Of a stretch of 64,000 nt of DNA, positions 11,865 through 61,133 are shown piece after piece. Made by a program: the position numbers and the translations under genes. Under the pieces are notes generated by a model. The model was given only the letters and a program-made list of their open reading frames with translations. It did no database searches and was not told where the DNA came from. This DNA is from Bacteroidales bacterium. Lineage in GTDB: Bacteria; Bacteroidota; Bacteroidia; Bacteroidales; F082. The stretch is from positions 1-64,000 of the forward strand of contig JAFXMK010000014.1 in the NCBI GenBank assembly GCA_017530365.1, given 5' to 3'. How positions within the stretch are numbered: position 1 is the first letter of the stretch; each line of letters starts with the position of its first letter.

Positions 11865-12773
11865 ATGACTAACCCTCGCGTCCTCGGTATCGGAGAAACC
11901 GTCCTCGACATCCTGTTCAAGGATGACCAACCCCTAAAAGCGGTCCCGGGCGGCTCGACGTTCAATAGCATCGTCTCACTAGGAAGGGCAGGGGTAAACT
12001 GTGCCATGGTGACGGAAGTGGGGGGCGACCACGTAGGCGATCTGGTATGTAACTACCTGAAAGAGAATGGCGTTTCTTCGGAATATGTCTGCCGTTGCGA
12101 AAAGGCCAAATCACCCATTTCGCTGGCGTTCCTCGATGAGCATAACGATGCGCAATACGTGTTCTATAAAGATCCATCGCCCGCTGCACTCAGCGGAAAA
12201 CTGCCGGAGTTTAACAGCGACGACGTGGTGCTCTTCGGGTCGTTCTTCGCCATCAATCCGGCCATACGTCAAAAAGTGGTCGGTTTGCTGCGTAAGGCGC
12301 ACGAAGCGGGGGCTTGGCTTTATTATGATGTCAACTTCCGCAAAAACTATATCGCCGATATCCCTGTCCTGAAGCCAAATGTCGAAGAGAACATGAGTTT
12401 GGCCAACGTGGTGCGTGGGTCGATGGAGGATTTCAACTATCTGTACGGCCTGAATGACGGTGATGCCATCTACGCACAAATTAGTCGCTTTTGTACCACA
12501 TTGATACTGACGGATGGCGCACACCCCATTCGGGTCTATACACCCGACGGCTGCGAGACATATCCCGTGCAGCCCATCGAGACCGTCAGCACCGTCGGCG
12601 CCGGCGACAACTTCAATGCGGGTTATATCTACGCCAAAATCATTGCCTCAACCTCTCATCTCTCACCTCTCAATTCTCAACTAATAGCGATGGCCCAACG
12701 TTGGAGCCAAGACGTCTGCCGCCAGTTAGGTAATAACATCAGCGACGAATTGGTCGCATCTATTCATAAATGA
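11865..12773 (+). CDS. PfkB-family carbohydrate kinase (fructokinase-like)
   Basis: 302 residues. The N-terminus VLGIGETVLDILFKDD and the substrate-loop motif PGGSTFNSIVSLGRAGV are PfkB signature 1. The C-terminal VSTVGAGDNFNAGYIY is signature 2, with the GAGD anion hole and catalytic Asp. DVNFRKNY in the middle is typical of fructokinase or ribokinase-like members. It should phosphorylate a sugar or sugar-like alcohol with ATP in the cytoplasm; the exact sugar cannot be read from the sequence. An oddity is a heptamer-repeat segment (12651-12683) translated in frame as TSHLSPLNSQL, after the catalytic motif and before the last helices. The Nudix gene follows 7 bases later, probably in the same transcript. 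Confidence 0.88.
   Translation: MTNPRVLGIGETVLDILFKDDQPLKAVPGGSTFNSIVSLGRAGVNCAMVTEVGGDHVGDLVCNYLKENGVSSEYVCRCEKAKSPISLAFLDEHNDAQYVFYKDPSPAALSGKLPEFNSDDVVLFGSFFAINPAIRQKVVGLLRKAHEAGAWLYYDVNFRKNYIADIPVLKPNVEENMSLANVVRGSMEDFNYLYGLNDGDAIYAQISRFCTTLILTDGAHPIRVYTPDGCETYPVQPIETVSTVGAGDNFNAGYIYAKIIASTSHLSPLNSQLIAMAQRWSQDVCRQLGNNISDELVASIHK
12651..12683 (+). repeat. Heptamer tandem repeat inside pfkB
   Basis: Four in-register 7-base units from 12655: CTCATCT, CTCACCT, CTCAATT, CTCAACT. They belong to the window-wide family of short tandem heptamers and are translated in frame as part of the kinase. Confidence 0.75.
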
Positions 12774-12780
12774 TAACGAT

Positions 12781-13275
12781 ATGATCCAAAAACATTGCTC
12801 CGAATGCGGCAGCCCGCTCATCGAGAAACCCCTGGAAGGAGAGGGCATCGTGCCTTACTGCCCCCAATGCGAGGAGTTCCGCTTCCCCATGTATAATGTG
12901 GCGGTGAGCATGATCGTCATCAACGAACAGACCGGCGAGATCCTCTTGATCAAACAGTATGGACGACCGTTCTTCATCCTCGTGGCGGGCTACGTGAACC
13001 GTGGCGAAGCACTGGAACATGCCGTGGGTCGCGAAATCAAAGAAGAGACAGGGATGACGGTGAGCCATATCAAGTTCAACCGCACCAGCTTCTTCGAACC
13101 GTCGAACACGCTGATGTGTAACTTCACGGCCTTCGTGAAAGACGCCAGCGAACTTTCACCCAACGGGGAGATCGACTCCTACCAATGGTTCACGCCGGAA
13201 GCGGCACAACAAAACATCCGCCCCAACAGCCTCGCCGAACGGTTCTTGAATGCCTATCTCGAAGAAAAACTATAA
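12781..13275 (+). CDS. Nudix hydrolase with N-terminal zinc ribbon (NADH pyrophosphatase-like)
   Basis: 164 residues. A zinc ribbon is formed by C6-x2-C9 and C27-x2-C30. The Nudix box is intact: G70-x5-E76-x7-R84-E85-x2-E88-E89-x-G91. Zinc ribbon plus Nudix is the layout of the NudC-like group, which hydrolyses NAD(H)-type dinucleotides or NAD caps on RNA. This protein is shorter than full NudC, so substrate is uncertain. It lies 7 bases downstream of pfkB. Its stop overlaps the stop of the convergent esterase gene by 6 bases. Confidence 0.85.
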   Translation: MIQKHCSECGSPLIEKPLEGEGIVPYCPQCEEFRFPMYNVAVSMIVINEQTGEILLIKQYGRPFFILVAGYVNRGEALEHAVGREIKEETGMTVSHIKFNRTSFFEPSNTLMCNFTAFVKDASELSPNGEIDSYQWFTPEAAQQNIRPNSLAERFLNAYLEEKL

Positions 13276-14127
13276 CGCAAACACCTTTTTGAAAAACGCC
13301 ACCGTCTCCCCGATGACTTGCTTGCGTCTGCGGGTGATGGTGTGGTTCTCACCCTCGACCACCTTGAGGGTGGCGTGGGAACCGTAGGTCTTGAGGTATT
13401 GCTCACTGCACCACATCGGAACGATGCCGTCACGGTCGCCGTGAAGGAGAAGCACTGGACCCTTATAGGCGGCCGAGGTGCCAAAGATGTCGAGCTGCTG
13501 CGTGGTGACAAGGTATTCCCTGCCCAGCTTATAGAGCCCCCAACAGCGGATGTACTCCGGCGGGTCCTTAGGGTCGAAGGTGGCATTGAAGAACTTGCCT
13601 CCCTGACAGGCTTCCTTGATGACGGAGCCGGGGGCAATCAACACCACGCCAGCGGGTACCGTACTTTCGCTGGCCAGCCTTCCAGCGGTCATCGAGGCGA
13701 TGACACCGCCTTGCGAGTGACCCAACAAACCCACTTCGCTCACATACGGCAGGCTCCGCACATAGTCCCAGACGGCTGATGCATCGGCGATCTCCTTCTC
13801 GATGGTCATGTACTGCTTGTGACCATCGCTCTTGCCGTGACCGTTGAAATCGAAACGGATGGAAGCGATGCCAGCTTCGGCAAGTCCTTTCGCCAATTGC
13901 GGCATGGGACCATAGTCCTTGCTGGAAAAGATGCCATGCATCAAAATCACCATCGGACAATGATCCTTGGTAATGTCGAATCCTTCGGGTAAGGTGATCT
14001 TATAGGCAATCTTGCCTTCAGGTCCACGAATGATCGCTTTTTGAGATTGGCAACCCGTCAGAAACACGAGCCCGATGATTGTTATTATTAAAGAATGAAC
14101 AAACTGTTTCATGTATTTTTTCATCAT
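13270..14127 (-). CDS. Alpha/beta hydrolase lipoprotein (esterase-like)
   Basis: 285 residues from the ATG at 14127; a TTG three codons upstream is less likely. The lipoprotein signal ends FLTGC, with Cys26 as the lipidated residue. The alpha/beta hydrolase core shows VILMHGIF (oxyanion region), LLGHSQGG (nucleophile Ser), LLLHGDRDGIVP (acid Asp) and GENHTI (catalytic His). The closest resemblance is to cinnamoyl/feruloyl esterase-type bacterial hydrolases. It probably cleaves esters at the cell envelope. The gene starts 5 bases after the TSCPD stop and is probably co-transcribed with it. Confidence 0.88.
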   Translation of the reverse strand: MMKKYMKQFVHSLIITIIGLVFLTGCQSQKAIIRGPEGKIAYKITLPEGFDITKDHCPMVILMHGIFSSKDYGPMPQLAKGLAEAGIASIRFDFNGHGKSDGHKQYMTIEKEIADASAVWDYVRSLPYVSEVGLLGHSQGGVIASMTAGRLASESTVPAGVVLIAPGSVIKEACQGGKFFNATFDPKDPPEYIRCWGLYKLGREYLVTTQQLDIFGTSAAYKGPVLLLHGDRDGIVPMWCSEQYLKTYGSHATLKVVEGENHTITRRRKQVIGETVAFFKKVFAL

Positions 14128-14132
14128 GCCGC

Positions 14133-14387: not shown

Positions 14388-14408
14388 AACAAGCTATAAT
14401 ATAGGTTG

Positions 14409-14416
14409 CAAAGATA
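14409..14416 (-). promoter_or_regulatory. -7 promoter element for the TSCPD gene
   Basis: On the minus strand this reads TATCTTTG, a full match to TAnnTTTG, 21 bases upstream of the ATG. It lies back to back with a weaker plus-strand box (TATTTTCG, about 14430) facing vsr. Confidence 0.45.
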
Positions 14417-14441: not shown

Positions 14442-14492
14442 ATGATGAAATCAAACGTGTTGTTTCAATCGCTAACCTGGGTTTTGCCATGA
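14442..14492 (+). other. Possible 16-codon leader ORF coupled to vsr
   Basis: An ATG-ATG start at 14442/14445 opens a frame MMKSNVLFQSLTWVLP whose TGA overlaps the vsr ATG (ATGA, 14489-14492). The overlap geometry suits translational coupling, and a TATTTTCG box lies just upstream. No conservation evidence is available, so this is a weak call. Confidence 0.25.
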
Positions 14493-15043
14493 CCGATCGC
14501 CTCACTCCCGAACAGCGTCACCTCGTGATGTCGCACATCCACGGCAAAGGGACCAAGCCCGAGCTGAAGGTGAGGCAATGGCTGTGGCATCATGGCTACC
14601 GCTATCGTCTCAACGTGAAGTCGGTGCCGGGTAAACCGGATATTGTGATGCGGAAATACCATACGGCGATCTTCGTGAACGGGTGCTTCTGGCATGGACA
14701 CCAAGTGGAGTTGGGAGTTAGGAGTGAGGAGGGAGGAGTAACCAATTCAACGTGTTGTAAGATTCCAGAGACCAATCAGACGTTCTGGGTGAACAAAATC
14801 AAAAGGAACCAAGAACGGGACCAAAAGAACTATCAAGTGCTTCATGATAACGGATGGCAGGTGATTGTCATCTGGGAATGCGAGCTCAAGCCGAAACGTA
14901 TCGAGGAGACCATGACGCAAGTGGAACTCCAACTTAATGACTACTTTCTTAAGCTTCATAGCCATAAGCACATTCCTTTCACCTACCATCAAGAAACCGA
15001 AGTGCCCCTGGCGGCAGAAGAAATCAATTATAACAGAAATTAA
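14489..15043 (+). CDS. vsr: Very short patch repair (Vsr) DNA mismatch endonuclease
   Basis: 184 residues, longer than the usual ~130-150. The Vsr fold is clear: TPEQRHLVMSHIHGKGTKPE, VRQWLWHHGYRYRL, VPGKPDIVMRKYHTAIFVNG and CFWHGH. These contain the catalytic Asp of GKPD and the FVNGCFWHGH metal/zinc region. The C-terminal WVNKIKRNQERDQKNYQVLH and VIVIWECELK are standard. It nicks T:G mismatches left by deamination of methylcytosine. Between CFWHGH and the next conserved Cys-containing segment, a heptamer repeat (14708-14742) adds residues VELGVRSEEGGV. No cytosine methyltransferase partner is in the window. Confidence 0.93.
   Translation: MTDRLTPEQRHLVMSHIHGKGTKPELKVRQWLWHHGYRYRLNVKSVPGKPDIVMRKYHTAIFVNGCFWHGHQVELGVRSEEGGVTNSTCCKIPETNQTFWVNKIKRNQERDQKNYQVLHDNGWQVIVIWECELKPKRIEETMTQVELQLNDYFLKLHSHKHIPFTYHQETEVPLAAEEINYNRN
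14708..14742 (+). repeat. Heptamer tandem repeat inside vsr
   Basis: Five in-register 7-base units: GAGTTGG, GAGTTAG, GAGTGAG, GAGGGAG, GAGTAAC. The 35 bases are read through in the vsr frame. They are the same family as the repeats in polA and at several 3' gene ends. Confidence 0.8.
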
Positions 15044-34800: not shown

Positions 34801-34803
34801 TTA

Positions 34804-34843
34804 GTTGATCAGTTGTTCAGTTAATCAGTTGTTCAGTTATTTC
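34804..34843. repeat. Octamer tandem repeat between DUF937 and trkA
   Basis: Units GTTGATCA, GTTGTTCA, GTTAATCA, GTTGTTCA and GTTATTTC in strict 8-base register. The minus-strand stop codon of the DUF937 gene (34837-34839) lies inside the repeat. The same octamer family occurs again at 35401-35424. Confidence 0.8.
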
Positions 34844-35385: not shown

Positions 35386-35400
35386 AGTGTGAGTTTTTAA

Positions 35401-35424
35401 GTTGTTCAGTTAATCAGTTGTAAA
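35401..35424. repeat. Octamer tandem repeat upstream of DUF937
   Basis: Three 8-base units, GTTGTTCA, GTTAATCA and GTTGTAAA, same family and orientation as 34804-34843. They lie between the DUF937 ATG and its -7 box, so would be in the mRNA leader. Confidence 0.7.
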
Positions 35425-37995: not shown

Positions 37996-38012
37996 CTGCA
38001 ATGCCGACTTTT
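37979..38012 (-). terminator. Rho-independent terminator of the large T9SS gene
   Basis: An 11-base perfect stem (AAAAGTCGGCA and TGCCGACTTTT) with a 12-base loop. On the minus strand it is followed by a T-rich tract, as expected for intrinsic termination downstream of the gene at 38045-40966. Confidence 0.8.
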
Positions 38013-38047
38013 CTTCTGACTTCCGTCTTCCGACTTCTGTCTTCTTA
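38013..38047. repeat. Heptamer tandem repeat at the 3' end of the T9SS gene
   Basis: Five 7-base units: CTTCTGA, CTTCCGT, CTTCCGA, CTTCTGT, CTTCTTA. The minus-strand TAA stop of the adjacent gene (38045-38047) is formed by the last unit. It lies directly beside the terminator stem. Confidence 0.78.
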
Positions 38048-40966
38048 CTTCACCACAACCTTCTGGGTCTTGATGTTGTTGCCGTTGATGAGGCGGAGCA
38101 TATAGACTCCGGTGGCGGCGTTGACCTTGGTGGTGGCGTTGCCGTTGACGGTCTCGGTGCTGAGCACGCGGCCGGTCATATCGACAACTTGCAGGGTGGC
38201 TTCACCTTCGTTGTTGATGGTCCAATCGTTGCCGTTGAAGAAGGCGAAGTTATTGGCGTTCTGCTCGTTGATGCTGCTGTTGGCGCTGAACACGAGGCGG
38301 AAGCGGCTGGCGTAGTCGGTGACCTTAGCCTCGAAGCTGTAGCTCGGGTTGGCGATCAGGTCGATGTCGGCGCCAGTCATGTTGTCGATGAGGTGGAGGT
38401 ACTCCATCTCAACGTTTTCGGTGTTGACGCTGAAGGTGTAGGTGCCGTTGTTTTCAGCCTTGAAGCTGACAGGCATCTCACCGATTTCTTCAGCGTTGAC
38501 GATGGCGTAGTCCTTGTTGCTTTGTTCGAAATAGACCTTGGTGTGGTTCGGGTTGAGTTGGAACTTAGGCAGCTGACGGCCTTCGCCGAAGCGGACGATG
38601 GCGCGGTCAACGAGCTTGCTGCTGTTGGTGATGTTCAGGGCGAGGTTGGCGCTCTTGCCAGTAGCTGTTTTGCTGAAAGTCACGGTTTCGTTTTCACCTT
38701 CGGCCACCACAAAGATACCAGTCATAGCAGCAACTTCGGTGCCAGCTTGTTGAGCAGTAACATCAATACCGGAACCATCATTGTTCATGGTGTAGAAATC
38801 CTTGTCAGTGTAGGCTTTCTCGCCCCAGGGGTTACCCACGAGGTTCCAGCCTTTGAAATCAACGGCGTTGTCATCATAAACCAGTTCGATTTTGCCATCG
38901 CCATCATAAGCAGTTCCAGTGAGTGTGAATTCACCGCCAGTCTTGTGGGCGTAGAGGTAGCCCTTGCCAGGTTCGAGGTTAGTGAAAGCGCCAGCTTTGT
39001 AGTTGCGCCATTCATCATCTTGAGCTTGGTCGAAGGAGTAGAGGTCGAAGTCGCCGGTGGTCATTTCATGGTTGGTGAGATCCACGGTGACAGGCGAAGC
39101 GATGAGGTAGTAGCCACCTTCGTTAGAGTCATCTCCATAGCCTTCGATGGTGAGGGTGTATTGCTGCGGAGCAATATTCTCTTCATAATACACTGTGACA
39201 GACGTAAAGCCGCAGGTACCACCTATCGTAGCAACCATGGCAGTGGCGCCATCGGTAGGAGTGACGGTGACAGTTGTACCATCTGCAGAAGCAGTAGCAT
39301 TGGTCCAAGTGCTGTTCACTAATGTATTGGCATAGTTTGTTGATGTCGCAGTGAACACAACACTTGTTATGGCAAAACCAGGAGCAGGAGAGATGGTTAA
39401 AGTGTTTCCACTATAGAAACGAGAGCTAGTTCTATTGTTAGAATCACCACCAAGATAATTGCTTGCTGATGTGCCGCCAGACTTAGAAGAGTTAGTCATA
39501 GTAGCATATTCGCTAGACCAAGTAACAATATCTGTATCAGTAATTTCATCATACGAAGCAATGCTCAAATTCCAAGTGACATTTGGAGCTTCATAAGCAG
39601 CTTGGTTGACAGTGACGATGGCATAAACTTCTTCCGAATTATCATCATAGGTATAAACCTTCATATAAGCAGTGCGGGCTTCGCCGTCGTTGGTATCGAT
39701 GATGTAAGAGAGGATGTAAGCATCGTTTTCTTCATTAATTTCAGCATAAATCCAATCCGGATCGTCGCCTTCAAGTTCGTTGCCATCGGCATCGCAGAAA
39801 TAGTAATCGAAGCTGTCGAAGTTTTCGATATTTTCATAGGTCAGAGCCAAGTTGCCTTCTGCACCAGCGAAGGGAGCATTGATTGTTGAGGGGGTGACAG
39901 TGACGGTAGGAGTTGTAATGACAGGATGGGTCAAAGATACCAATTCGCAACCTTGACCGAATTCGTAAGTTGAACCATATTTGATAAGGTTACCATAAAC
40001 CACAACGACATCACCAACGGCAACCGTTGATGCGTCTACGCCAGTGCTGCTCACGCAACGGTAGGCTTGCAGGAAATCGGTGTCGCCAGAATTGTCAACG
40101 AAGTTGAAGGTGATATTGTTATAATCGTTGCTCCATGCTGTAGGGATAGCGGAAACGATACCCGTGGCATAAACGCCTTGTGTGCCAGCGTTGGCATCAA
40201 TGGCGGTGCGGGCATCAGCCACAGTGTAAGGATCTTCCAATGTGCCAGCATGTTCCAAAGTGATGAAAGCGTATTCGGCAGTGGCAACAGCGCTATTGTC
40301 GTAACCTTCGGCAGAGGCCATGGCCTTAATGGTCGTGTTAGTGCTGACATTGATAGCTCCAGAATAAACTGTGCTGTTTGTGGTAGGATCGTTACCATTG
40401 GTGGTGTAATAAATCGTGGCACCTTCGGTGGCGCAGTTGATGCTCACGTTTTGAGCTTCGGTGTAAGTGCCAGCAGCTGGGCTGAAGGTGGGAGTAGCGC
40501 AGGTGGTAGCACTTGATTTAATGTAAGTTATCGAGATACCACTGCTTCTGGTTTGAGAACTCGGTTTAAAAGTAAACTCAGTAACATTTGCAGATTCGGC
40601 GTATGTCCAGGTCACAATCTTGCCACTAACCGTAGGAGTGACACTAGGCGTAACAGTTGCATTTTGAGCATATGTGACATAATTGCCCGTGGAAGAAGCT
40701 TCATAAGCAACACTCAAAATCTTAGCACCATTCAAAACATTAATCGTAACCGTAGTGTTGGCGTAAATACGAATAGGATTCGAATAAGTGTTGGTAGAAG
40801 AAACCATAATGGTAACATTCTGGTCGTTTGCAACAGCAGTAGCCGTACCAGGAAGTGCTGTAGTTCCAGGCCATGTTACACTTGCTTGTCCCCTCATCCC
40901 CATCGGGATAGCGAGGATTGCGAGCAGCGCGAGGGCTGCAGTAAGGATTGTAAATCTCCTTTTCAT
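38045..40966 (-). CDS. T9SS-exported multidomain protein with chitobiase-type and OB-like domains
   Basis: 973 residues. The N-terminus MKRRFTILTAALALLAILAI is a signal peptide. ATPTFSPAAGTYTEAQNVSI and EGATIYYTTNGNDPT form a chitobiase/beta-hexosaminidase C-terminal-type domain. A DUF6359-like OB region follows (GTLEDPYTVADARTAIDANA, then GVYATGIVSAIPTAW). Several beta-sandwich regions come next, one with GNTLTISPAPGFAITSVVFT. The end (LQVVDMTGRVLSTETVNGNA, VYMLRLINGNNIKTQKVVVK) is a T9SS type A sorting domain. The protein is predicted to be secreted to the surface; no catalytic domain is evident. It is monocistronic, with its own promoter and terminator. Confidence 0.85.
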   Translation of the reverse strand: MKRRFTILTAALALLAILAIPMGMRGQASVTWPGTTALPGTATAVANDQNVTIMVSSTNTYSNPIRIYANTTVTINVLNGAKILSVAYEASSTGNYVTYAQNATVTPSVTPTVSGKIVTWTYAESANVTEFTFKPSSQTRSSGISITYIKSSATTCATPTFSPAAGTYTEAQNVSINCATEGATIYYTTNGNDPTTNSTVYSGAINVSTNTTIKAMASAEGYDNSAVATAEYAFITLEHAGTLEDPYTVADARTAIDANAGTQGVYATGIVSAIPTAWSNDYNNITFNFVDNSGDTDFLQAYRCVSSTGVDASTVAVGDVVVVYGNLIKYGSTYEFGQGCELVSLTHPVITTPTVTVTPSTINAPFAGAEGNLALTYENIENFDSFDYYFCDADGNELEGDDPDWIYAEINEENDAYILSYIIDTNDGEARTAYMKVYTYDDNSEEVYAIVTVNQAAYEAPNVTWNLSIASYDEITDTDIVTWSSEYATMTNSSKSGGTSASNYLGGDSNNRTSSRFYSGNTLTISPAPGFAITSVVFTATSTNYANTLVNSTWTNATASADGTTVTVTPTDGATAMVATIGGTCGFTSVTVYYEENIAPQQYTLTIEGYGDDSNEGGYYLIASPVTVDLTNHEMTTGDFDLYSFDQAQDDEWRNYKAGAFTNLEPGKGYLYAHKTGGEFTLTGTAYDGDGKIELVYDDNAVDFKGWNLVGNPWGEKAYTDKDFYTMNNDGSGIDVTAQQAGTEVAAMTGIFVVAEGENETVTFSKTATGKSANLALNITNSSKLVDRAIVRFGEGRQLPKFQLNPNHTKVYFEQSNKDYAIVNAEEIGEMPVSFKAENNGTYTFSVNTENVEMEYLHLIDNMTGADIDLIANPSYSFEAKVTDYASRFRLVFSANSSINEQNANNFAFFNGNDWTINNEGEATLQVVDMTGRVLSTETVNGNATTKVNAATGVYMLRLINGNNIKTQKVVVK

Positions 40967-41161: not shown

Positions 41162-42232
41162 ATGAACATCGCCGCACTAGTTTCGGGTGGAGTCGATAGC
41201 TCCGTGGTGGTGCCCCTGCTCAAAGAACAGGGCATCACACCCCATATCTTTTATATTAAAATAGGTATGGAAGGAAAGGAAGACCTGTCGTCGTGCCCAT
41301 CGGAAGAAGACATCGAAATTACCACTTATATCGCCAAGAAATACGGCTGCCCCTTCGACATCGTCGATCTGCAACACGAATACTTCGAGACGGTCGGGCG
41401 CTACACCATGGAGATGGTGCGCAAAGGCCTCACGCCTAACCCCGACGTGATGTGCAACCGTTGGATCAAGCTGGGCGCCTTCGAAGAGAAAGAAGGCCAT
41501 CACTTCGACAAGATCGCCACGGGACACTACGCGCGCTCATGGGAAGACGAGAACGGCATCTTCTGGCTCGGCACCGCTGCCGATACCTTCAAGGATCAGA
41601 CCTACTTCCTCGGGCGTATCACCTACGCCCAGCTGAGTAAGGTGATCTTCCCCATCGGCGACCTGCCCAAGCCTAAGGTGCGTGAATTGGCCGCCCAATA
41701 CAAGCTGCCATCGGCCGAACGCCACGACAGCCAAGGCATCTGCTTCCTGGGTAAAATCAACTATAACGACTATATCCGCGAATATGTCGGCGAGATGCCA
41801 GGCGACATCGTGGAGCTGGAGACGGGCAAGAAGCTGGGGCGCCACAAGGGCTTCTGGTTCCATACCATCGGACAACGCAAAGGCCTCGGCCTCGGCGGGG
41901 GTCCTTGGTTCGTGGTCAAGAAGGACATCCCGAACAACATCGTCTATGTGTCGCAAGGCTACGACCCCGTGGCGCAATACACCGACATCATCCCATTAGG
42001 CGACCTCCAGATGATGAATCCCGCCCTGCACCTCACCGAAGGCATGCGAGTGCGCTATAAGATACGCCACCAACCGGAATTCACCTTGGGTACCATCCAT
42101 ATTACCGAACAAGGCGCCGACATCGTCTCGGATGTGGCCATCTCAGGCATCGCCCCAGGACAGTTCGGGGTGCTCTATCACGAGACGGAACCATTCGTAA
42201 TCGGCAGCGGGGTGATAGTAGAGAGGAGTTAG
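41162..42232 (+). CDS. mnmA: tRNA-specific 2-thiouridylase MnmA
   Basis: 356 residues. The PP-loop motif SGGVDSSVV is at residues ~8-16. The first catalytic Cys is in NPDVMCNRWIKLG and the second in HDSQGICFLGKI. GQRKGLGLGGGPWFVVKKD is typical of the central domain. The enzyme activates U34 of Lys, Glu and Gln tRNAs by adenylation and adds sulfur. Its TAG stop is inside a short GAGTTAGGAG repeat and overlaps the stop of the convergent rluA-type gene by 4 bases. Confidence 0.95.
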   Translation: MNIAALVSGGVDSSVVVPLLKEQGITPHIFYIKIGMEGKEDLSSCPSEEDIEITTYIAKKYGCPFDIVDLQHEYFETVGRYTMEMVRKGLTPNPDVMCNRWIKLGAFEEKEGHHFDKIATGHYARSWEDENGIFWLGTAADTFKDQTYFLGRITYAQLSKVIFPIGDLPKPKVRELAAQYKLPSAERHDSQGICFLGKINYNDYIREYVGEMPGDIVELETGKKLGRHKGFWFHTIGQRKGLGLGGGPWFVVKKDIPNNIVYVSQGYDPVAQYTDIIPLGDLQMMNPALHLTEGMRVRYKIRHQPEFTLGTIHITEQGADIVSDVAISGIAPGQFGVLYHETEPFVIGSGVIVERS

Positions 42233-42909
42233 GAGCTAAACGAAGGCCACGGTTGGGTCTTGGGTAGAGGTGCGGTGATGTCAATCTGGGTCTTTTGGAC
42301 GGGATGTTCGAATGAGATGCGATAGGCGTGGAGGCAGATGGAAGCATCGGGATTGCTCCGCGGATAGCCGTACTTCAGATCGCCCTTGATGGGACAGCCG
42401 ATATGCGCCAGCTGGCAGCGGATCTGATGATGACGGCCCGTGAAAAGCTCCACCTCCAACAGGTAATAGTTGTCGGACTTGCCCACCAGACGGTAGCTCA
42501 GACGGGCTAATTTGGCCTCCTTGGTGCCTTCGGGGACGACGTACGACTTGTTCTGCTTTTCGTTCTTCACGAGGTAATTCTCCAACACGTCGGCGTCCTT
42601 CGTGGGACGGTTCTTCACGATGGCCAGATACACCTTGTGGAAGTCGCGGTCCTTCACCTTGACGGTCATCCGCGAGAGGGCCTTGCTGGTCTTGGCAAAC
42701 ACCACGGCGCCACTCACAGGACGGTCGATGCGATGCACCAGCCCAGCGAAGACGTTGCCCGGTTTGTCGTATTTCTCCTTGATGTAATCCTTCACATCGT
42801 CGAGCAAACACACGTCGCCCGTCTTGTCGCCTTGCACAATCTCCGAAGGGAGCTTGTTGACGACAATCAAATGGTTATCTTCGTATAATATTCTATCGTT
42901 GATTTTCAC
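42229..42909 (-). CDS. RluA-family pseudouridine synthase
   Basis: 226 residues starting with GTG at 42909; no ATG fits, since conserved sequence begins at once (ILYEDNHLIVVNKLPSEIVQ). The active-site motif is LVHRIDRPVSGAVVFAKT, with catalytic Asp in HRIDR. TGRHHQIRCQLAHIGCPIKG is also diagnostic. It isomerises a uridine in rRNA or tRNA; the exact site is unknown. Just upstream, heptamer repeat units give AGGAG about 8 bases before the GTG, a Shine-Dalgarno-like match unusual for this phylum. Its stop lies in another short repeat shared with mnmA. Confidence 0.93.
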   Translation of the reverse strand: MKINDRILYEDNHLIVVNKLPSEIVQGDKTGDVCLLDDVKDYIKEKYDKPGNVFAGLVHRIDRPVSGAVVFAKTSKALSRMTVKVKDRDFHKVYLAIVKNRPTKDADVLENYLVKNEKQNKSYVVPEGTKEAKLARLSYRLVGKSDNYYLLEVELFTGRHHQIRCQLAHIGCPIKGDLKYGYPRSNPDASICLHAYRISFEHPVQKTQIDITAPLPKTQPWPSFSS

Positions 42910-42910
42910 T

Positions 42911-42932
42911 TCTTACTCCTCACTCCTCACTA
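42911..42932. repeat. Heptamer repeat between GH97 and rluA-type genes
   Basis: About three 7-base units on the minus strand (AGTGAGG, AGTGAGG, AGTAAGA). They contain the GH97 stop codon at one end and an AGGAG ribosome-binding-like sequence before the GTG at the other. Confidence 0.65.
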
Positions 42933-45147: not shown

Positions 45148-45175
45148 TCCTCCTCACTCCTAACTCAACTCAAAC
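45148..45175. repeat. Heptamer repeat between tatA and pheS
   Basis: Degenerate 7-base units (CCTCCTC, ACTCCTA, ACTCAAC, TCAAACT). The minus-strand TAG stop of pheS (45160-45162) and its last four codons are within the repeat. Confidence 0.55.
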
Positions 45176-50358: not shown

Positions 50359-51870
50359 ATGGATCAACGCATTGCAATGAACCCCAACCTGCTGGTTCAG
50401 TATCTTCAGAAACCGGCAGCCGAATTTACCCGCGCCGACATCATCCGCTATTGTGAAGAAAATGAAATCGAATTCGTCAACTTCCACTATTGCGGCTGGG
50501 ACGGTAAACTCAAAACCTTGAACTTCGTCATCCACAGCGCCGAGCACCTGGAGAACATCCTCTCCGCCGGTGAGCGTGTCGATGGCTCCAGCCTCTTCCC
50601 CTTCATCGAAGCTGGTAAGAGTGACCTCTATGTGGTGCCGAAATACCGCACCGCCTTCCGCAACCCCTTCTCAGAAGTGCCTACCCTCGACATCCTCTGC
50701 TCGTTCTACAACCGCGACGGTGAGCCTTTCGAGAGTTCACCGGAATATATCCTCCGCAAGGCCCATCAGGTCTTCAAGAAGACAACGGGTCTCGAGATGC
50801 AGACCATGGGCGAGCTGGAATATTACATCATCGCCGATGACGAGGAAATCTACGAAGTGCCCGACCAGAGAGGCTATCACGAGAGCGCCCCGTTCAACAA
50901 GTTCACCGAGTACCGTGTGGAGGCCATGCGCCTCATCGCCCAGGCCGGTGGCCTGATCAAATACGGTCACTCCGAGGTGGGCAACTTCACCCATGAAGGC
51001 AAGGTCTATGAGCAGAACGAAATCGAATTCCTGCCGACCAACATCGAAGACGCCGCCGATCAACTCGTCGTGGCCAAGTGGATCATGCGCCAGCTGGCTT
51101 ACCAGTACGGCGTGGTGCTGACCTTCGCCCCGAAGATCACTGTGGGCAAGGCTGGTTCAGGCATGCACGTTCACTGCAAGTTCACGAAGGACGGCAAGAG
51201 TGTCATGGTGAACAAGGGCGAACTTAGCGACTATGGCAAGCGTGCCATCGCCGGTTACATGGATGCCGGTACCTCGCTGCCTGCCTTCGGCAACCCCAAC
51301 CCGCTGTCATTCCTCCGTCTGGTGCCGCATCAGGAAGCCCCGACTTCGCTGTGTTGGTCCTACAGCAACCGCAGCGCCTTGGTGCGTGTGCCGCTGGGCT
51401 GGATCAACAATGGCAAGGACATGGTGGCCAACTGCAACCCGCTTGAGAAAAAGTCGAACCGCGACTTCAGCGACAAGCAGACCTTCGAATGGCGTGCCTC
51501 CGACGGCTGCGCCGACATGTACCTGCTGATGGCTGCCCTCTGCGCCGCTGCCCGTCACGGCTTCGAGATGCCCAACGCCCTCGAAGTGGCAGAAAAGACC
51601 TACGTCGGTCTCGGCGTGAACATCCACGATGCCAAGAACAAGAAGGTGCAGGAGAGCCTTGAGCAACTTCCCGACAGCTGTGTGGCCGCCGCCAAGGAGC
51701 TTAAGAAGGACCGCAAGATCTACACCGACAAGGGCGTGTTCTCCGATGCCATCATCGACTACATGATCAAGTTCCTCAGCGATTTCAAGGATGCCAACCT
51801 CCGCAAGGAATTAGGCAACGACACTGAGAAGATCATGAAGCTCGTGAAGGAAAATATTCACGTAGGGTAA
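50359..51870 (+). CDS. glnA: Glutamine synthetase (type I-like)
   Basis: 503 residues. The beta-grasp N-terminus includes FVNFHYCGWDGKLKTLNFVI and RVDGSSLFPFIEAGKSDLYV. The catalytic part shows MGELEYYIIADDEE (metal ligands), the GS signature KITVGKAGSGMHVHCKFTKD, PAFGNPNPLSFLRLVPHQEA and FEWRASDGCADMYLLMAALC. It makes glutamine from glutamate, ammonia and ATP. The region after LVPHQEAP (TSLCWSYSNRSALVRVPLGW) differs from classical GlnA but fits Bacteroidetes homologues as I recall. The 3' end abuts a heptamer inverted repeat. Confidence 0.88.
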   Translation: MDQRIAMNPNLLVQYLQKPAAEFTRADIIRYCEENEIEFVNFHYCGWDGKLKTLNFVIHSAEHLENILSAGERVDGSSLFPFIEAGKSDLYVVPKYRTAFRNPFSEVPTLDILCSFYNRDGEPFESSPEYILRKAHQVFKKTTGLEMQTMGELEYYIIADDEEIYEVPDQRGYHESAPFNKFTEYRVEAMRLIAQAGGLIKYGHSEVGNFTHEGKVYEQNEIEFLPTNIEDAADQLVVAKWIMRQLAYQYGVVLTFAPKITVGKAGSGMHVHCKFTKDGKSVMVNKGELSDYGKRAIAGYMDAGTSLPAFGNPNPLSFLRLVPHQEAPTSLCWSYSNRSALVRVPLGWINNGKDMVANCNPLEKKSNRDFSDKQTFEWRASDGCADMYLLMAALCAAARHGFEMPNALEVAEKTYVGLGVNIHDAKNKKVQESLEQLPDSCVAAAKELKKDRKIYTDKGVFSDAIIDYMIKFLSDFKDANLRKELGNDTEKIMKLVKENIHVG

Positions 51871-51939
51871 AAGGTTAAAGGTAAAAGGTTAAAGGTGATA
51901 ATTGTACCTCTAACCTCTAACCTTTAACCTCTAACCTTA
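51868..51939. repeat. Inverted pair of heptamer repeats between glnA and the LytTR gene
   Basis: Left arm: AAGGTTA, AAGGTAA, AAGGTTA, AAGGTGA (51871-51898). Right arm: ACCTCTA, ACCTCTA, ACCTTTA, ACCTCTA (51906-51933). The arms are complementary and can form a long imperfect hairpin, a likely bidirectional terminator for the two convergent genes. The element touches both stop codons. Confidence 0.78.
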
Positions 51940-52743
51940 TAAAATTGCCGCAATCTGGTCGTAGTAGTTCTTGCTGACTGGGATGCGCGCAGCGTTTTGA
52001 ACGTCTAAAACAGCATAGATGAAGTCCTTCTCTTTTTGGAGGACTTCAACTCTGTTTTTATTGACGAAATAGGAGCGGTGGCAGCGGATCAGGCCGTTTT
52101 TAGCGCATGTATCCTCAATGCGTTTCATCGAGTTACGCAGGATGTAAGTACTGATCTTGCCTTCGTCCATATAATAGATGCGTAGATAGTTCTCGTCCGA
52201 CTGGATGTAGAGTACTGAAGCCTGTGCCACGATCAGCTTCATGTTGCCGCGCTCGTCGTAAAAACGGATCTTTTCGTTGAACGACTGATGGGCGGCGTCA
52301 TCCAAGGCTTCCTCCTTTTCAAGGATGGTGAAGTGCTGGTACAAAATGATATAAGGACTGATCATCGCCATGGCGAGATAGACGAAGGAATAGCCGAAAA
52401 ACATGAAATAGGCTTCGATTTTATGGGTGACCAGCCACAGGTACAAAGCGGAAAAGCCGGAAGCAAACACGATCTCGAAGAGGCAAAGGAAAAGGTAAAC
52501 CCGCTGTGTGATCTGGGTTTTTCTGCTGATGAACATCAAAGGAAGCCTTGAAGCCAACAAGATGCCGAGGATGATGCAGAACACCATCACGGCGTGGAAA
52601 GAATACCTTGAGAAGGTGATGTCGTAGTTCTTAAACGCAAAAGGGCAAAACAGCAAAAACAATCCCAGGGCAAACAATGGAATGCCAATCAGATGTCCCC
52701 AGAAGGCGTTTATGTTGAAGATGTTCTTAGGCGGTTGCTTCAT
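51937..52743 (-). CDS. Membrane-bound LytTR-family transcription regulator
   Basis: 268 residues. Four transmembrane segments (residues ~14-33, 47-65, 82-104 and 115-136; e.g. WGHLIGIPLFALGLFLLFCP) replace the usual receiver domain. After a linker, a LytTR DNA-binding domain fills residues ~165-268: VLYIQSDENYLRIYYMDEGK, RNSMKRIEDTCAKNGLIRCH, RSYFVNKNRVEVL and RIPVSKNYYDQI. It probably senses a membrane signal and binds DNA directly. Its ATG lies 17 bases inside the end of the IPExxxVDY gene, tying it to the fatty-acid/rnc operon. Confidence 0.9.
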   Translation of the reverse strand: MKQPPKNIFNINAFWGHLIGIPLFALGLFLLFCPFAFKNYDITFSRYSFHAVMVFCIILGILLASRLPLMFISRKTQITQRVYLFLCLFEIVFASGFSALYLWLVTHKIEAYFMFFGYSFVYLAMAMISPYIILYQHFTILEKEEALDDAAHQSFNEKIRFYDERGNMKLIVAQASVLYIQSDENYLRIYYMDEGKISTYILRNSMKRIEDTCAKNGLIRCHRSYFVNKNRVEVLQKEKDFIYAVLDVQNAARIPVSKNYYDQIAAIL

Positions 52744-55640: not shown

Positions 55641-58193
55641 ATGGACCAACCCGTTAAAAAATTATTTCTTCTCGATGCTTATGCATTGATTTACAGGGCT
55701 TTCTTTGCTTTGAGTAAACGTCCGGCAGTCAACTCAAAAGGCATGAACACTTCGGCCGTCATGGGCTTTTTGAACACGTTGTACGATGTGCTCCGCAATG
55801 AGAAGCCTACCCATATCGGTGTTGCCTTCGACCTGTCGGCGCCTACTGTGCGAGCACAGGAATTCACCGAATACAAAGCCAACCGCGAGACCATGCCCGA
55901 CGACTTAAGGGCTTCCATTCCTTATATCATCCGTCTGATCCAAGGATTCAACATTCCGATTTACGCCGCCGAAGGCTATGAGGCCGATGACGTCATCGGA
56001 ACCCTGTCACATCAAGCCGAGCAGAAAGGCTTCATCACCTATATGATGACTCCCGACAAGGATTTTGGACAATTGGTCACGGACAAGGTCTTGATTTATA
56101 AGCCTGCCAAGTTCGGTATGCCCGCCCAAGTGTGCGGACCGAAAGAGATCTGCGAAAAGTATGGCATCAGCGACCCCAAGCAACTCATCGACATCCTTGG
56201 ACTCTGGGGCGATGCCTCCGACAACATCCCAGGCATTCCAGGCATTGGCGAGAAAAACGCTTCCATTCTTGTAGGCAAGTATGGCAGCGTGGAGAACCTG
56301 ATCGCCCATGTCGATGAACTTAAGGGAAAACAGGCCGAAAACGTCCGCAATTTTGCGGATCAGGGTCTGATGTCGAAACATCTGGCCACCATCATGCTTG
56401 ACGCGCCAGTGGAACTCAACGAAGAGGAACTGGCGATTCATCAGCCCGACGTGCCCGCCTTGATGGAGCTGTTCGACGAGCTGGAGTTCCGTACTTTTAA
56501 GCAGAGGTTTATCAGAGACTATGGGGGAGTTAGGAGTGAGGAGTTAGGAGTGAGGAGTAAGGAATCAGAGATGCGACAGCCGTCATTGCGAGGAGCGGAG
56601 CAATACTCCTCACTCCCCACTCCTAACTCCTCACTTATCCTCGTCCTCTCCCAAGACGAATTCCAATGGGAATCCCAACGTCCATCCATCGAGAACCCTG
56701 AAATCGACAAAGTTGGTTATAACCTAAAACCAGTCCTCACTAGCCTTCGCAAACATGGCATCGTTCCACAAGGCGCCTTGTTCGACGTAATGATCGCGCA
56801 TTACCTCATCGAGCCGGAACAGCGGCACACACTGGACTTCCTTGCCGACGTCTATCTCCACAAAGAGTACAACCCCATGGGCAACCTGTGGAATCCTAAC
56901 GAAGGTGATGAAATTGTTCAGGAGCTGTACCAGGTCTTTCTCCCGATGCTGAAAGAAAACGGCCTCGAAAAGCTGTTTTACGAGATTGAGATGCCATTGG
57001 TCACGGTGCTGAGCATCATGGAAGAAAATGGCGTGAAGATCGACAGCCAGAACCTTCATAACATCAGCGAGGAGTTCGGTCAGCACATCCGTGAGCTGGA
57101 GGAACGCATCTACGACATGGCAGGGGTGAAGTTCAACATTGCCTCCCCGAAACAGCTGGGTGAGGTGCTCTTTGAGAAGTTGCACCTCGACGCCAAAGCC
57201 AAAAAGACCAAGACGGGACAATATGCCACAGGTGAGGAGGTGCTTCAAAAGCTTGCTGGGAAGCATCCCATCATCAACGCCATCCTGGATTATCGTTCCT
57301 ATACCAAGCTGAAATCGACTTATCTCGATGCCCTGCCGGCTTTGATCAGTCCCAAGGACGGCCTTATCCATACTTCTTTTAATCAAGCGGTGACAGCTAC
57401 GGGACGTCTGAGTTCCAATAATCCCAACCTGCAGAATATCCCTGTGCGCACTGCAAACGGACGTGAGATCCGTCGTGCTTTTGTGCCTCGTAGTCCGGAA
57501 TACACCTTGATGGCCGCCGACTATTCGCAGATCGAACTGCGTATCATCGCCCATCTGAGCGGTGATCCGGCCATGATCGCCGACTTTAACCTTGGTCACG
57601 ATATCCATGCCGCCACCGCCGCCAAGGTGTTCCATGTGCCACTTGACCAAGTCACCAAAGAACAACGCAGCCGTGCCAAGGCGGTCAATTTCGGCATCAT
57701 ATATGGTATGTCGGCCTTTGGTTTGGCGGAACGCATGGAGATCTCACGCGGTGAAGCCGCCGACATCATCAAGAAGTACTTCGAAGAATATGCCGGCATC
57801 AAGGAATACATGAATCGCAGCATCGCGCTCGCAAAAGAGAGAGGCTACGCTGAGACCATCTTGGGGCGCCGCCGTTATCTCCGCGACATCAATGCCGCCA
57901 ACGGTACAGTGCGCAACTTCGCCGAACGCAATGCCATCAACGCGCCCATCCAAGGCTCCTCGGCGGATATGATCAAGATTGCCATGATCGGCATACAACA
58001 GGAACTGACACGACTCAAAATGCAATCCAAGATGATACTGCAAGTGCACGATGAATTGGTTTTCGATGCCCACCTCAATGAACTTGACACACTGAAAACG
58101 CTCGTCAACGACAAAATGGTGAACGCCTTGCCGCTCTCGGTTCCAGTCATCGTGGAGATCAATACCGGCGAAAACTGGCTGGAAGCGCATTAA
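55641..58193 (+). CDS. polA: DNA polymerase I, proofreading domain apparently degenerate
   Basis: 850 residues, shorter than the ~920-950 usual in relatives. Residues 1-~290 are the 5'-nuclease (FLLDAYALIYRAFFAL, YEADDVIGTLSHQAEQ, WGDASDNIPGIPGIGEKNA). Residues ~415-850 are the polymerase: MAADYSQIELRIIAHLSGD (motif A), RAKAVNFGIIYGMSAFG (motif B), QVHDELVFDAH (motif C). Between them, the 3'-5' exonuclease region is shortened: no DxE motif is seen, and KVGYNLKPV has Pro where the exonuclease Asp should be. Residues ~296-333 are encoded by a heptamer/palindrome repeat. It fills gaps and removes primers. Proofreading loss is inferred by inspection. Confidence 0.95.
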   Translation: MDQPVKKLFLLDAYALIYRAFFALSKRPAVNSKGMNTSAVMGFLNTLYDVLRNEKPTHIGVAFDLSAPTVRAQEFTEYKANRETMPDDLRASIPYIIRLIQGFNIPIYAAEGYEADDVIGTLSHQAEQKGFITYMMTPDKDFGQLVTDKVLIYKPAKFGMPAQVCGPKEICEKYGISDPKQLIDILGLWGDASDNIPGIPGIGEKNASILVGKYGSVENLIAHVDELKGKQAENVRNFADQGLMSKHLATIMLDAPVELNEEELAIHQPDVPALMELFDELEFRTFKQRFIRDYGGVRSEELGVRSKESEMRQPSLRGAEQYSSLPTPNSSLILVLSQDEFQWESQRPSIENPEIDKVGYNLKPVLTSLRKHGIVPQGALFDVMIAHYLIEPEQRHTLDFLADVYLHKEYNPMGNLWNPNEGDEIVQELYQVFLPMLKENGLEKLFYEIEMPLVTVLSIMEENGVKIDSQNLHNISEEFGQHIRELEERIYDMAGVKFNIASPKQLGEVLFEKLHLDAKAKKTKTGQYATGEEVLQKLAGKHPIINAILDYRSYTKLKSTYLDALPALISPKDGLIHTSFNQAVTATGRLSSNNPNLQNIPVRTANGREIRRAFVPRSPEYTLMAADYSQIELRIIAHLSGDPAMIADFNLGHDIHAATAAKVFHVPLDQVTKEQRSRAKAVNFGIIYGMSAFGLAERMEISRGEAADIIKKYFEEYAGIKEYMNRSIALAKERGYAETILGRRRYLRDINAANGTVRNFAERNAINAPIQGSSADMIKIAMIGIQQELTRLKMQSKMILQVHDELVFDAHLNELDTLKTLVNDKMVNALPLSVPVIVEINTGENWLEAH
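56527..56637. repeat. Composite inverted repeat element inside polA
   Basis: Left arm: GAGTTAG, GAGTGAG, GAGTTAG, GAGTGAG, GAGTAAG, GAATCAG (56527-56568). Centre: a GTCATTGCGAGG...GGAGCAAT palindrome (56582-56604). Right arm: CTCCTCA, CTCCCCA, CTCCTAA, CTCCTCA (56606-56633), complementary to the left arm. The whole is read through in frame. Confidence 0.82.
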
Positions 58194-58221
58194 AGTTGAC
58201 AGTTGACAATTGACAGTTGAA
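58194..58221 (+). repeat. Heptamer repeat between polA and dnaG
   Basis: Four 7-base units: AGTTGAC, AGTTGAC, AATTGAC, AGTTGAA, starting 1 base after the polA stop. They contain TTG triplets spaced 7 bases apart upstream of the dnaG -7 box. Confidence 0.8.
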
Positions 58222-58237
58222 AGTTTTCGTAATTTTG
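58210..58237 (+). promoter_or_regulatory. Promoter of dnaG using a heptamer unit as -33 element
   Basis: TAATTTTG (58230-58237) matches TAnnTTTG. The TTG at 58210-58212 in the third heptamer gives a 17-base spacer; the TTG in the first unit (58196-58198) would be far too distant. The ATG lies 18 bases after the -7 box. Confidence 0.45.
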
Positions 58238-60214: not shown

Positions 60215-60228
60215 AAATCGAGATACAC

Positions 60229-61089
60229 ATGGGAATGTTTAACAATCGTAAAAGATGGCGTGTTCCGGCTGGACAAGAGCCGACTGCCTTGGACAAAAGA
60301 GTGATGGCTTTTGAGAGTCGCGGTGCTTTGGTGCCGAGACGTTCTTTGATTCGTACCCCAGAGGAGATTGAGGGTATCAAACGGAGTGGTGTCATTAACA
60401 CCGCGATTCTCGATCTGGTAGGCGAGAAGATACATGCGGGCATGAGCACCTTGGAGATCGATGAGCTGGTACACAGCTATACCATCGAACATGGCGCCAT
60501 TCCTGCCACTTTGGGCTATGAAGGCTATCCCAAGAGCGTTTGCACCTCCATCAACGAGGTGGTTTGCCACGGCATCCCCTCTGCTAAGGAGATCCTGAAG
60601 GAAGGCGACATCATCAATGTGGATTGCACCACCATTTTGGACGGCTTCTACGCGGATGCTTCACGCATGTATGTCATCGGCGAGACCACGCCACGCAAGC
60701 AGAAACTGGTGGATGTGGCCAAGGAATGCCTCGAGATCGGCATGGCTGCTGCCAAGCCCTTCGGCTTTGTGGGTGACATCGGCAATGCCATCGAGCAACA
60801 TGCTCACAAGAACGGCTTCAGCGTGGTGCGCGATCTCTGCGGACATGGCGTGGGCGTGAAGTTCCACGACGACCCCGAGGTGCTGCACTATGGCAGGAAA
60901 GGCACGGGAATGCTGCTGGTGCCCGGCATGGTGTTCACCATCGAGCCGATGATCAATATGGGCACCTGGAAGGTCTTCATCGACAGTGCCGATGGTTGGA
61001 CCGTCATCACCGAAGACGAATTGCCCTCTGCCCAATGGGAACACACCTTCCTAATGACCGAAACCGGGCTGGAGATACTGACTTATTAG
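60229..61089 (+). CDS. map: Methionine aminopeptidase, type I
   Basis: 286 residues. The metal-binding residues are visible: Asp in NVDCTTILDGFYADASRMYV (two Asp), His in CGHGVGVKFHDDPE, Glu in VFTIEPMINMG and Glu in WEHTFLMTE. A basic N-terminal extension of ~35 residues (FNNRKRWRVPAGQEPTALDK) precedes the core, longer than the minimal enzyme; its role is unknown. It removes initiator Met from nascent proteins. It is last of the polA-dnaG-map run. A heptamer repeat begins at the last base of its stop. Confidence 0.95.
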   Translation: MGMFNNRKRWRVPAGQEPTALDKRVMAFESRGALVPRRSLIRTPEEIEGIKRSGVINTAILDLVGEKIHAGMSTLEIDELVHSYTIEHGAIPATLGYEGYPKSVCTSINEVVCHGIPSAKEILKEGDIINVDCTTILDGFYADASRMYVIGETTPRKQKLVDVAKECLEIGMAAAKPFGFVGDIGNAIEQHAHKNGFSVVRDLCGHGVGVKFHDDPEVLHYGRKGTGMLLVPGMVFTIEPMINMGTWKVFIDSADGWTVITEDELPSAQWEHTFLMTETGLEILTY

Positions 61090-61133
61090 TTAGGAGTGAG
61101 GAGTAAATTCTCCCCTCTCCCTAGGGAGAGGGG
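61089..61133. repeat. Heptamer units followed by a perfect 22-base palindrome
   Basis: GTTAGGA, GTGAGGA, GTAAATT (61089-61109) are followed by a 22-base perfect palindrome (61112-61133; arm CCCCTCTCCCT) and a GGCCGGGGGTGAGG tail. It lies between two convergent genes and may end both transcripts. The palindrome resembles a GC-rich dispersed element I recall from many bacterial genomes. Confidence 0.65.

Follow-up and report, generated by a model that had tools for sequence, protein, structure and literature searches.

Heptamer tandem arrays keep their positions while their units are replaced in a genus of Bacteroidales

Introduction

Heptanucleotides are reportedly the commonest long repeats in many bacteria, and in 2007 Mrazek is said to have proposed a link to the length of DNA held by the polymerase. 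Among the Bacteroidales, one organism with such repeats is Paludibacter propionicigenes. It is one of five Bacteroidetes in which TAACTGA heptamer repeats were described; the same repeats occur in Beggiatoaceae and cyanobacteria, mostly upstream of start codons (MacGregor 2015, PMC4679880). A second type, GGGNATC, is found in Xanthomonas and Nostoc, and the inverted repeat pairs of Xanthomonas (70 in Xcc, 75 in Xac) are always convergent (Rehm et al. 2015, PMC4692102). Borg tandem repeats have units essentially unique to each region, turn over fast and include a conserved hotspot with different units (PMC9879509). The dominance of heptamers among long bacterial repeats has reportedly stood unexplained since at least 2007 (PMC4679880, PMC4692102). 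Here we describe arrays of seven- and eight-base units in a window of 64,000 nucleotides (contig JAFXMK010000014.1, positions 1 to 64,000, of Bacteroidales assembly GCA_017530365.1) and at the corresponding sites of related genomes. A preliminary description of the window knew of no counterpart in Bacteroidales, which is not right for Bacteroidetes because TAACTGA repeats have been reported in five of them (PMC4679880).

Results

The window belongs to an assembly of 2.67 Mb in 50 contigs that is 88% complete (G000 below). Genome-wide counts are based on an 864 kb sample, consisting of the window and 40 stretches of 20 kb, and chance levels on three first-order Markov resamples. At a score of at least 10, the sample contains 89 arrays of period 7, compared to a mean of 1.0 in the resamples, and 17 arrays of period 8, compared to 1.3. 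Each remaining period between 4 and 22 has at most 20 arrays, the larger numbers being those of multiples of 3 (12, 15, 18, 21) and of period 14. At a score of at least 14 there are 51 period-7 and 6 period-8 arrays, and none in the controls. Similarly, the motif GGAGTTAGGAGT has 68 matches in the full assembly and its reversed control has 1. At least half of the length is intergenic for 59 of the 89 period-7 arrays and 16 of the 17 period-8 arrays, while intergenic DNA makes up 13.5% of the sequence. Thus, by their excess over chance and over other periods, and by their intergenic enrichment, the arrays belong to the class of heptanucleotide simple sequence repeats. The family suspected in the preliminary description extends across the genome, neither at chance level nor confined to a few loci, and its estimate of about one array per 5 kb was near the measured density: 106 arrays at a score of at least 10 over 864 kb, or roughly one every 8 kb.

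How far does this extend beyond one genome? The genus, taken here as a rumen Bacteroidales genus, was surveyed by searching 40 genomes with a polA fragment, and 36 matched. Identity of the fragment to G000 is 91% in G034, 83% in G008, 82% in G020, 80% in G013 and 79% in G023; the named polA relatives at 75–77% protein identity are Bacteroidales assemblies. At a score of 10, the number of arrays per 100 kb is 10.3 in G000, 12.8 in G034, 14.4 in G023, and, from ~40 kb each, 23.4 in G008 and 12.5 in G020. Densities are lower in G013 (2.0, from a 100 kb sample of an assembly that is 82% complete), in further members of the genus (2 to 4) and at loci of other Bacteroidota (0.7). A set of 80 polA neighbourhoods, mostly from other Bacteroidota (1.47 Mb), has only 5 period-7 arrays at a score of at least 12, compared to 74 in G000.

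The arrays keep their positions over longer times while the unit is swapped for another one that is current in the genome concerned. Intergenic gaps were compared between orthologous loci, as the preliminary description had proposed: 473 gaps were tested, 75 of them with an array, yielding 271 gap-ortholog pairs over ten genomes (109 with G034, 83 with G023). In G034, an array is present in 13 of 20 orthologs of gaps that have one in G000, versus 7 of 89 orthologs of array-free gaps. In G023, which is ~20% apart from G000, the figures are 11 of 15 versus 7 of 68. Gap length alone was rejected as the cause of this conservation, since the effect is still strong among gaps matched for length (15–400): 12 of 16 versus 5 of 40 for G034 (Fisher 1e-5), and 11 of 12 versus 2 of 27 for G023 (Fisher 5e-7). 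As for the units, 6 of the 13 pairs shared with G034 have the same consensus, 3 are one base off and 4 are further off. Only 1 of the 11 pairs shared with G023 is identical; 2 are one base off, 5 are two to four bases off and 3 have units of a different length. Replacement of an 8-base unit by a 7-base unit at the same site is seen between relatives. Between G000 and G034, some pairs differ by gain or loss of units in steps close to 7 bases, and others not at all in length. In alignments, flanking sequence, including hairpins with T runs, is conserved up to arrays that themselves differ.

Two sites illustrate this well. At site 51866, pairs of arrays facing each other head to head are of the GGTTAAA/AGAGGTT type in G000 and G034, AACGGAR in G008 and G020, and GGAAAGT in G023; instead of an array there is, in G013, a GC-rich hairpin with a T run and, in G060, a short gap. 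The second site lies within polA, in the linker of the encoded protein, where the arrays are GGAGTNA in G000 and G034, AACGGAG plus GGAGTGA in G008, and GGAAAGT/GGAAAAC in G023. The linker otherwise holds other palindromes (G013, G020, G061) or sequence resembling a repetitive extragenic palindrome (REP; G004, G060). In the G000 linker, a REP-like palindrome, GTCATTGCGAGG, lies between the two arms (56564-56604); longer versions are found in G034 and G008, with a different palindrome in the same linker in other relatives. The polA open reading frame (ORF) is open in all 24 genus loci checked.

The set of units in use is particular to each genome, in the manner of a dialect. Most frequent in G000 and G034 are GGAGTTA, GGTTAGA and GGAGTGA, and in G023 GGAAAAC, GGAGAAC, AGAATTA and GGAATTA. 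Unit pairs at most one base apart account for 17.7% within genomes versus 10.0% between them, and the maximum of 500 label shuffles is 13.5%. Counts of two unit types over whole genomes are reciprocal. GGARAAC-type sequence has 231 matches in G008, 184 in G023, 61 in G020, 3 in G000 and 0 in G013, with controls at zero in all ten genomes. The GGAGTDA type has 132 matches in G034, 65 in G000, 57 in G008, 40 in G013 and 0 in G023, although its reversed control is itself array-like and hence not clean (10 matches in G000, 29 in G034). The units of G000 derive from few masters (GGAGTTA 33, GGAGTGA 27, GGAGTTG 6, GGAGTGG 4) that follow one another in near-random order inside arrays.

Most arrays are single, and those that are paired have a preferred polarity. 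Among heptamer arrays in ten genome samples, opposed neighbours at most 150 bases apart run from purine-rich to pyrimidine-rich in 35 cases and the other way in 1; 3 further neighbours are on the same strand. Of these 35 head-to-head pairs, 20 are in convergent gaps, 7 in tandem gaps and 8 inside genes. Units of the two arms are nearly the same in 27 of 36 pairs; for random array pairs of a genome the figure is 19%. Genes with an internal pair include polA (G008, G023) and an RNase H gene (G034, with a counterpart in G023); in the RNase H gene the arrays separate the N-terminal from the RNase H domain. Pairs also lie within the range of the C-terminal domain of a Mur ligase in G023, just past the domain of an S41 peptidase in G000, and in two more G023 proteins with no domain or a secretion-tail domain alone. 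DNA polymerase I and RNase H are among the conserved proteins that the arrays extend in a species-specific manner. A separate observation concerns the 9-base loop of one G000 pair (51897-51905): G034 has its reverse complement, and at another G000 site (locus L125, 447-454) there is a similar loop, which suggests that whole pairs may be flipped or copied.

Arrays occupy places where coding constraint ends, that is, after stop codons and in short gaps, or where the protein tolerates extra residues. When arrays were placed at random within the same gaps 2000 times, on average 36.6 and never more than 48 of the 83 intergenic arrays came to lie within −25 to +5 of a stop codon; the observed number is 51. 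The number adjacent to a start is 19, compared to a mean of 24.0. No clear excess at stops is seen in gaps of at least 150 bases (3 of 15, where random placement gives a mean of 1.1 and a maximum of 6). Of 81 single arrays that run from a stop towards a start, 66 are closer to the stop side, with medians of 2 bases inside the stop and 16 before the start; many arrays end within 60 bases of a start, and those with their 5' end facing a start follow no closer-to-stop rule. The strand is also non-random. Among arrays in tandem gaps, 34 of 43 heptamers and 11 of 13 octamers have the purine-rich strand as mRNA; in convergent gaps, 12 of 17 heptamer arrays have it as the sense strand of the nearest gene. 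In-gene arrays have no strand bias (10 sense and 13 antisense; 22 to 22 over G000, G034 and G023), and the tandem-gap and in-gene splits differ (Fisher 0.006).

Three explanations were rejected. First, a stop-codon safety net, in which the units would provide stops in all frames, fails because the leading G023 units, GGAAAAC and GGAGAAC, contain no stop. Second, a Shine-Dalgarno role for GGAG fails because of those leading G023 units and because arrays in convergent gaps have no start downstream. Third, leading-strand replication polarity fails on the absence of a replichore bias of the G-rich strand (107 to 100).

Arrays of the window are listed in Table 1. They were called with Tandem Repeats Finder (TRF) at a score of at least 30, and fainter ones by direct reading of the sequence. 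Proteins were labelled with Pfam, and the vsr-like protein and polA with NCBIfam as well. All twelve places named in the preliminary description have 7- or 8-base repeats, nine of them by TRF; those it placed at 42221, 45148 and 61089 hold merely 2 to 2.5 units, visible in the raw sequence. It had overlooked two arrays, the right arms at 51906 and 56605, each the opposed partner of a listed array.

Table 1. Repeat arrays of the 64-kb window and polA, with their state in related genomes
Feature	Position	Strand	Detection	Context	In relatives
Heptamer array, ACCTCTC on +	12651..12679	- (purine strand)	TRF, 3.1 copies of 7 / 2.1 of 14	In frame within PfkB-family kinase ORF 11865-12773(+) (Pfam), open through array	
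Heptamer array GGAGTTA/GGAGTGA	14707..14739	+	TRF, 4.7 copies	In frame in vsr-like mismatch endonuclease ORF 14489-15043(+) (Vsr by Pfam and NCBIfam)	Identical in G034 (32 bases); G023 has another, repeat-like insert
Octamer array AGTTGATC/AGTTGTTC on +	34803..34839	-	TRF	Between ORFs 33460-34800(-) and 34837-35385(-)	7-base array instead in G034
Octamer array	35392..35421	-	TRF, 3.8 copies	Upstream of ORF 34837-35385(-)	
Heptamer array CTTCTGA/CTTCCGA on +	38012..38051	-	TRF	3' end of ORF 38045-40966(-), overlaps stop	
Two-unit GGAGTTA stretch	42223..42236	+	Sequence	Contains stop of tRNA-thiouridylase-like ORF 41162-42232(+) (Pfam)	In G034, grown to array + REP-like palindrome + opposed array
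Heptamer array TCACTCC on +	42906..42931	-	TRF, 3.7 copies	Immediately past stop of GH97 ORF 42930-44921(-) (Pfam)	AACGGAG in G023
Two-unit stretch	45149..45165	-	Sequence	Contains stop of PheS-like ORF 45160-46191(-) (Pfam)	Different units in G023 and G062
Heptamer array GGTAAAA/GGTTAAA	51866..51896	+	TRF	Contains stop of ORF 50359-51870(+); left arm of head-to-head pair	
Opposed heptamer array ACCTCTA on +	51906..51937	-	TRF, 4.6 copies	At stop of ORF 51937-52743(-); right arm	
polA, DNA polymerase I, 850 aa	55641..58193	+	Pfam, NCBIfam	Head-to-head pair in its linker	
Heptamer array GGAGTTA/GGAGTGA	56526..56563	+	TRF, 5.4 copies	In frame within polA, left arm	
Opposed heptamer array ACTCCTC on +	56605..56635	-	TRF, 4.4 copies	In frame within polA, right arm	
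Heptamer array AGTTGAC	58194..58225	+	TRF, 4.6 copies	First base right after polA stop codon	Other units in G008 and G004; no array in G020
Short GGAGTGA stretch	61087..61106	+	Sequence	Contains stop of ORF 60229-61089(+)	One unit longer in G034

At site 58194, directly after polA, an insert of 543 bases in G034 (loci L173 and L144), rich in AATTCGC/GAATTA-like repeats, takes the place of the heptamer array of G000. A GC-rich palindrome, CCCTCTCCC...GGGAGAGGG...GGGGTGAGG, directly follows the array at 61087 (61107-61146) and is kept in G034. Repeats of another kind, 219–225 bases long, are found in tandem at 25442-27112 within a 2004-aa ORF (21909-27923).

Discussion

What could produce arrays that stay in place and change their unit? 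The reading preferred here, to which we give a little less than even credence, combines recurrent slippage with re-synthesis that copies units between loci; it would be active genome-wide and tolerated where coding allows, and it is in part inferred. Units would travel between loci; local slippage alone cannot explain why many sites in one genome share a new heptamer and the corresponding sites in a relative share a different one. Specifically, the purine-rich strand would grow at its 3' end by copying units from other genomic arrays, the simplest donors, in a template switch primed by microhomology; repair of a break at the array is the probable occasion. If both 3' ends of one break were extended, head-to-head pairs would result, and the retention of head-to-head order inside genes fits such growth of the purine strand on both sides. 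No regulatory function would be needed. Selection would remove out-of-frame arrays from coding sequence and arrays from promoter and start regions, and in untranslated mRNA it would favour the purine strand. A genus with fixed sites and different units makes the question testable: local drift would be expected from slippage alone, and from copying in trans a rewriting of arrays into the unit of the genome concerned.

Several points weigh against a copying step. The step itself was not seen, and no donor-recipient pair was traced. The polarity of pairs has exceptions, namely the one pair in G011 with the opposite order and two octamer pairs of reverse order in G000, which fall outside the 36 scored heptamer pairs; strand was not scored for 19 of 296 heptamer arrays, whose purine content is balanced. 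Unit similarity within G000 (13.1%) is below that between G000 and its sister G034 (16.0%). Purine-rich heptamers are alike by composition, with letter-shuffled units still reaching 4.4%, so that part of the dialect signal may come from a bias in slippage steps. The order of variants at lag 1 is slightly above random (0.444 vs 0.398, sd 0.022), as plain slippage predicts. Finally, orthologs were found in the fetched stretches for 48 of the 98 G000 array sites, and genes were called with a simple custom script.

The strongest competitor is ordinary replication slippage with a built-in preference for 7 bases and selection on tolerated sites. Recurrent units would then reflect a preference of the polymerase, and the purine-sense bias selection on mRNA. 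We would be only mildly surprised if this proved correct. The reported dominance of heptanucleotides, with its proposed basis in the DNA length held by the polymerase (Mrazek, 2007), points this way, as do the unit-number steps between G000 and G034. The arrays are in tolerated places, and their adjacency to stops (51 of 83) could follow from free space. The DNA polymerase I (Pol I) of the clade offers further support. Both the DxE exonuclease motif and the exo II aspartate are absent from Pol I in all 11 inner-clade genomes read (G000, G034, G008, G020, G013, G023, G010, G060, G004, G061, G062), while other genus members keep both. Because of these absences, proofreading has probably been lost in the inner-clade enzyme, including that encoded by polA in the window, and loss of the motif may add slippage. 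As a cause of the arrays, proofreading loss was rejected: it stays a correlation because one loss in one clade is inseparable from descent, and the evidence is partly contrary. Array density per 100 kb spans 10 to 23 in five of the clade genomes without the motif, but is down at 2.0 in the sample of G013 and at 5.8 when five others are pooled; the values of 2 to 4 belong to genus members with DxE and that of 0.7 to loci of other Bacteroidota. By alignment, DxE is also absent from 5 of the 80 named polA loci (L031, L036, L047, L072, L073), and no array of period 7 or 8 reaches a score of 12 at any of them. Slippage on its own leaves four observations poorly explained: species-specific dialects despite similar GC, head-to-head order inside genes too, 8-base units replaced by 7-base units at the same site, and the lack of a replichore strand bias.

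A bolder version of copying in trans is that the arrays are scars of templated break healing. Both 3' ends would be extended with a purine-rich heptamer copied from other arrays or from RNA, yielding head-to-head pairs, and tolerated sites would be broken again and rewritten in the current dialect. This is unlikely as it stands. If it were true, the polarity shared with Xanthomonas would imply one mechanism for heptamer repeats in several phyla.

The remaining readings fit worse. In one, selection maintains the head-to-head pairs for the RNA hairpins they would form, which would serve as (bidirectional) transcription terminators, and the units drift in concert. The location of 20 of 35 pairs in convergent gaps, the shared unit of the arms in 27 of 36 pairs and the GC-rich hairpin with a T run that replaces the pair at site 51866 in G013 would all be expected of terminators. 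However, 8 of the 35 pairs are inside open genes, including polA (G008, G023) and those for Mur ligase, RNase H and S41 peptidase, and some arms have different units. A conserved GC-hairpin with a T run (C9 137526; G000 and G023) has an array beside it and is not replaced, and the majority of arrays are single. A terminator role is improbable.

Slightly more doubtful still is a telomerase-like reverse transcriptase (RT) that adds heptamers to broken ends from a short RNA template. Fixed unit length, few master units in near-random order and head-to-head order fit the extension of two 3' ends, and templated synthesis of 9-base repeats has a bacterial precedent in DRT10 (PMC12632851). There are two RT genes in G000; the one scanned (L259:1201-2511, G000:C3) matches PADLOC RT_UG26 along its length, and full-length-like matches are present in 11 of the 40 genus genomes. 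A GC-rich stretch upstream of it, alike by eye in four genomes, is perhaps its noncoding RNA. Nevertheless, no template of about 1.5 units in the local dialect was found at the UG26 loci of the 4 genomes searched, out of 11; an ordinary array is present there in G023. Nor does presence of the gene track array counts: UG26-like RT was not found in the 82% complete G013, which has 40 GGAGTDA matches, and is present in G024 and G029, which have few. The UG26 RT was rejected as template carrier on both grounds. In addition, the ten or more unit families in one genome would need many templates.

Arrays might also be regulator binding sites or phase-variable elements. Translational regulation was proposed for TAACTGA repeats near start codons (PMC4679880), and the many arrays that end close to a start would suit such a role. 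We consider it very improbable, as units and even unit lengths differ between orthologous sites, arrays adjoin stops more closely than starts, and the arrays of the window adjoin housekeeping genes and not surface genes. Least probable of all is that the arrays are part of mobile palindromes of the REP or miniature inverted-repeat transposable element (MITE) type moved by a Y1 transposase: REP-like GTCATTGCGAGG does lie between arms in polA of G000 and at 42221 in G034, and Y1 transposase domains are found in 29 of 40 genus genomes (2 in G000), but most pairs have no REP between the arms, GTCATTGCGAG has merely 17 matches in 864 kb on both strands, and after array masking no dispersed palindrome was found, with no 14-mer common to at least 6 of 320 G000 gap and array regions.

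Comparison with known repeats

The preliminary description likened the arrays to the short tandemly repeated repetitive (STRR) sequences of cyanobacteria, and both the period and the variety of units bear this out. With the same detector, 300 kb of a Trichormus variabilis plasmid gave 13 period-7 arrays versus 1 in one Markov resample, and 0 to 5 for other periods from 5 to 12; period 7 and several unit families are thus shared. The long heptanucleotide repeats of Mrazek (2007) and the STRRs of Calothrix, as cited in PMC4679880 and PMC4692102, are likewise said to combine dominance of 7 bases with scattered taxonomy. Unlike the arrays described here, they are not reported in these accounts to undergo unit replacement at conserved sites.

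The GGGNATC repeats of Xanthomonas and Nostoc share more: period 7, intergenic excess, proximity to stops on the coding strand and convergent pairs (35 of 36 here), and those of Xanthomonas also keep the same gene context in relatives (PMC4692102). Pair order and positional conservation therefore have a precedent in Xanthomonas. In other respects they differ. Each lineage there has one unit type that forms G-quadruplexes, while the genus has many, in which runs of G do not go beyond GG or short GGG. By sequence, the leading units of six genomes include none of the quadruplex type (GGGNATC/GGGGAYT, four tracts of three G). The genus arrays also stand apart in that orthologous sites differ in unit and each genome has its dialect; a literature search that mostly did not cover subscription journals found no published report of unit replacement at such fixed sites.

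The TAACTGA repeats share with the genus arrays the heptamer, overlap with stops, stops in all frames for some units and occasional copies in ORFs. They consist of one unit, mostly before starts (PMC4679880), whereas the genus arrays adjoin stops, many of them between a stop and a start within 60 bases. The TAACTGA doublet TAACTGATAACTGA is rare, with 1 match in G000, 4 in G034 (overlapping or separate) and 0 in G023 and G018, and the genus arrays are not of this type. DRT10 would share templated synthesis of tandem-repeat DNA in bacteria, which for the genus is a rival reading only; its 9-base repeats are made as cDNA and are not reported in the chromosome (PMC12632851), and the genus has yielded no template at the UG26 loci of four genomes. 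Borg repeats resemble the genus arrays in their A-rich or purine-rich units, quick turnover, presence in ORFs and at gene ends, and a hotspot with differing units. The main difference is that Borg units are described as essentially unique to each region (PMC9879509), while the units of the genus recur at many loci of one genome.

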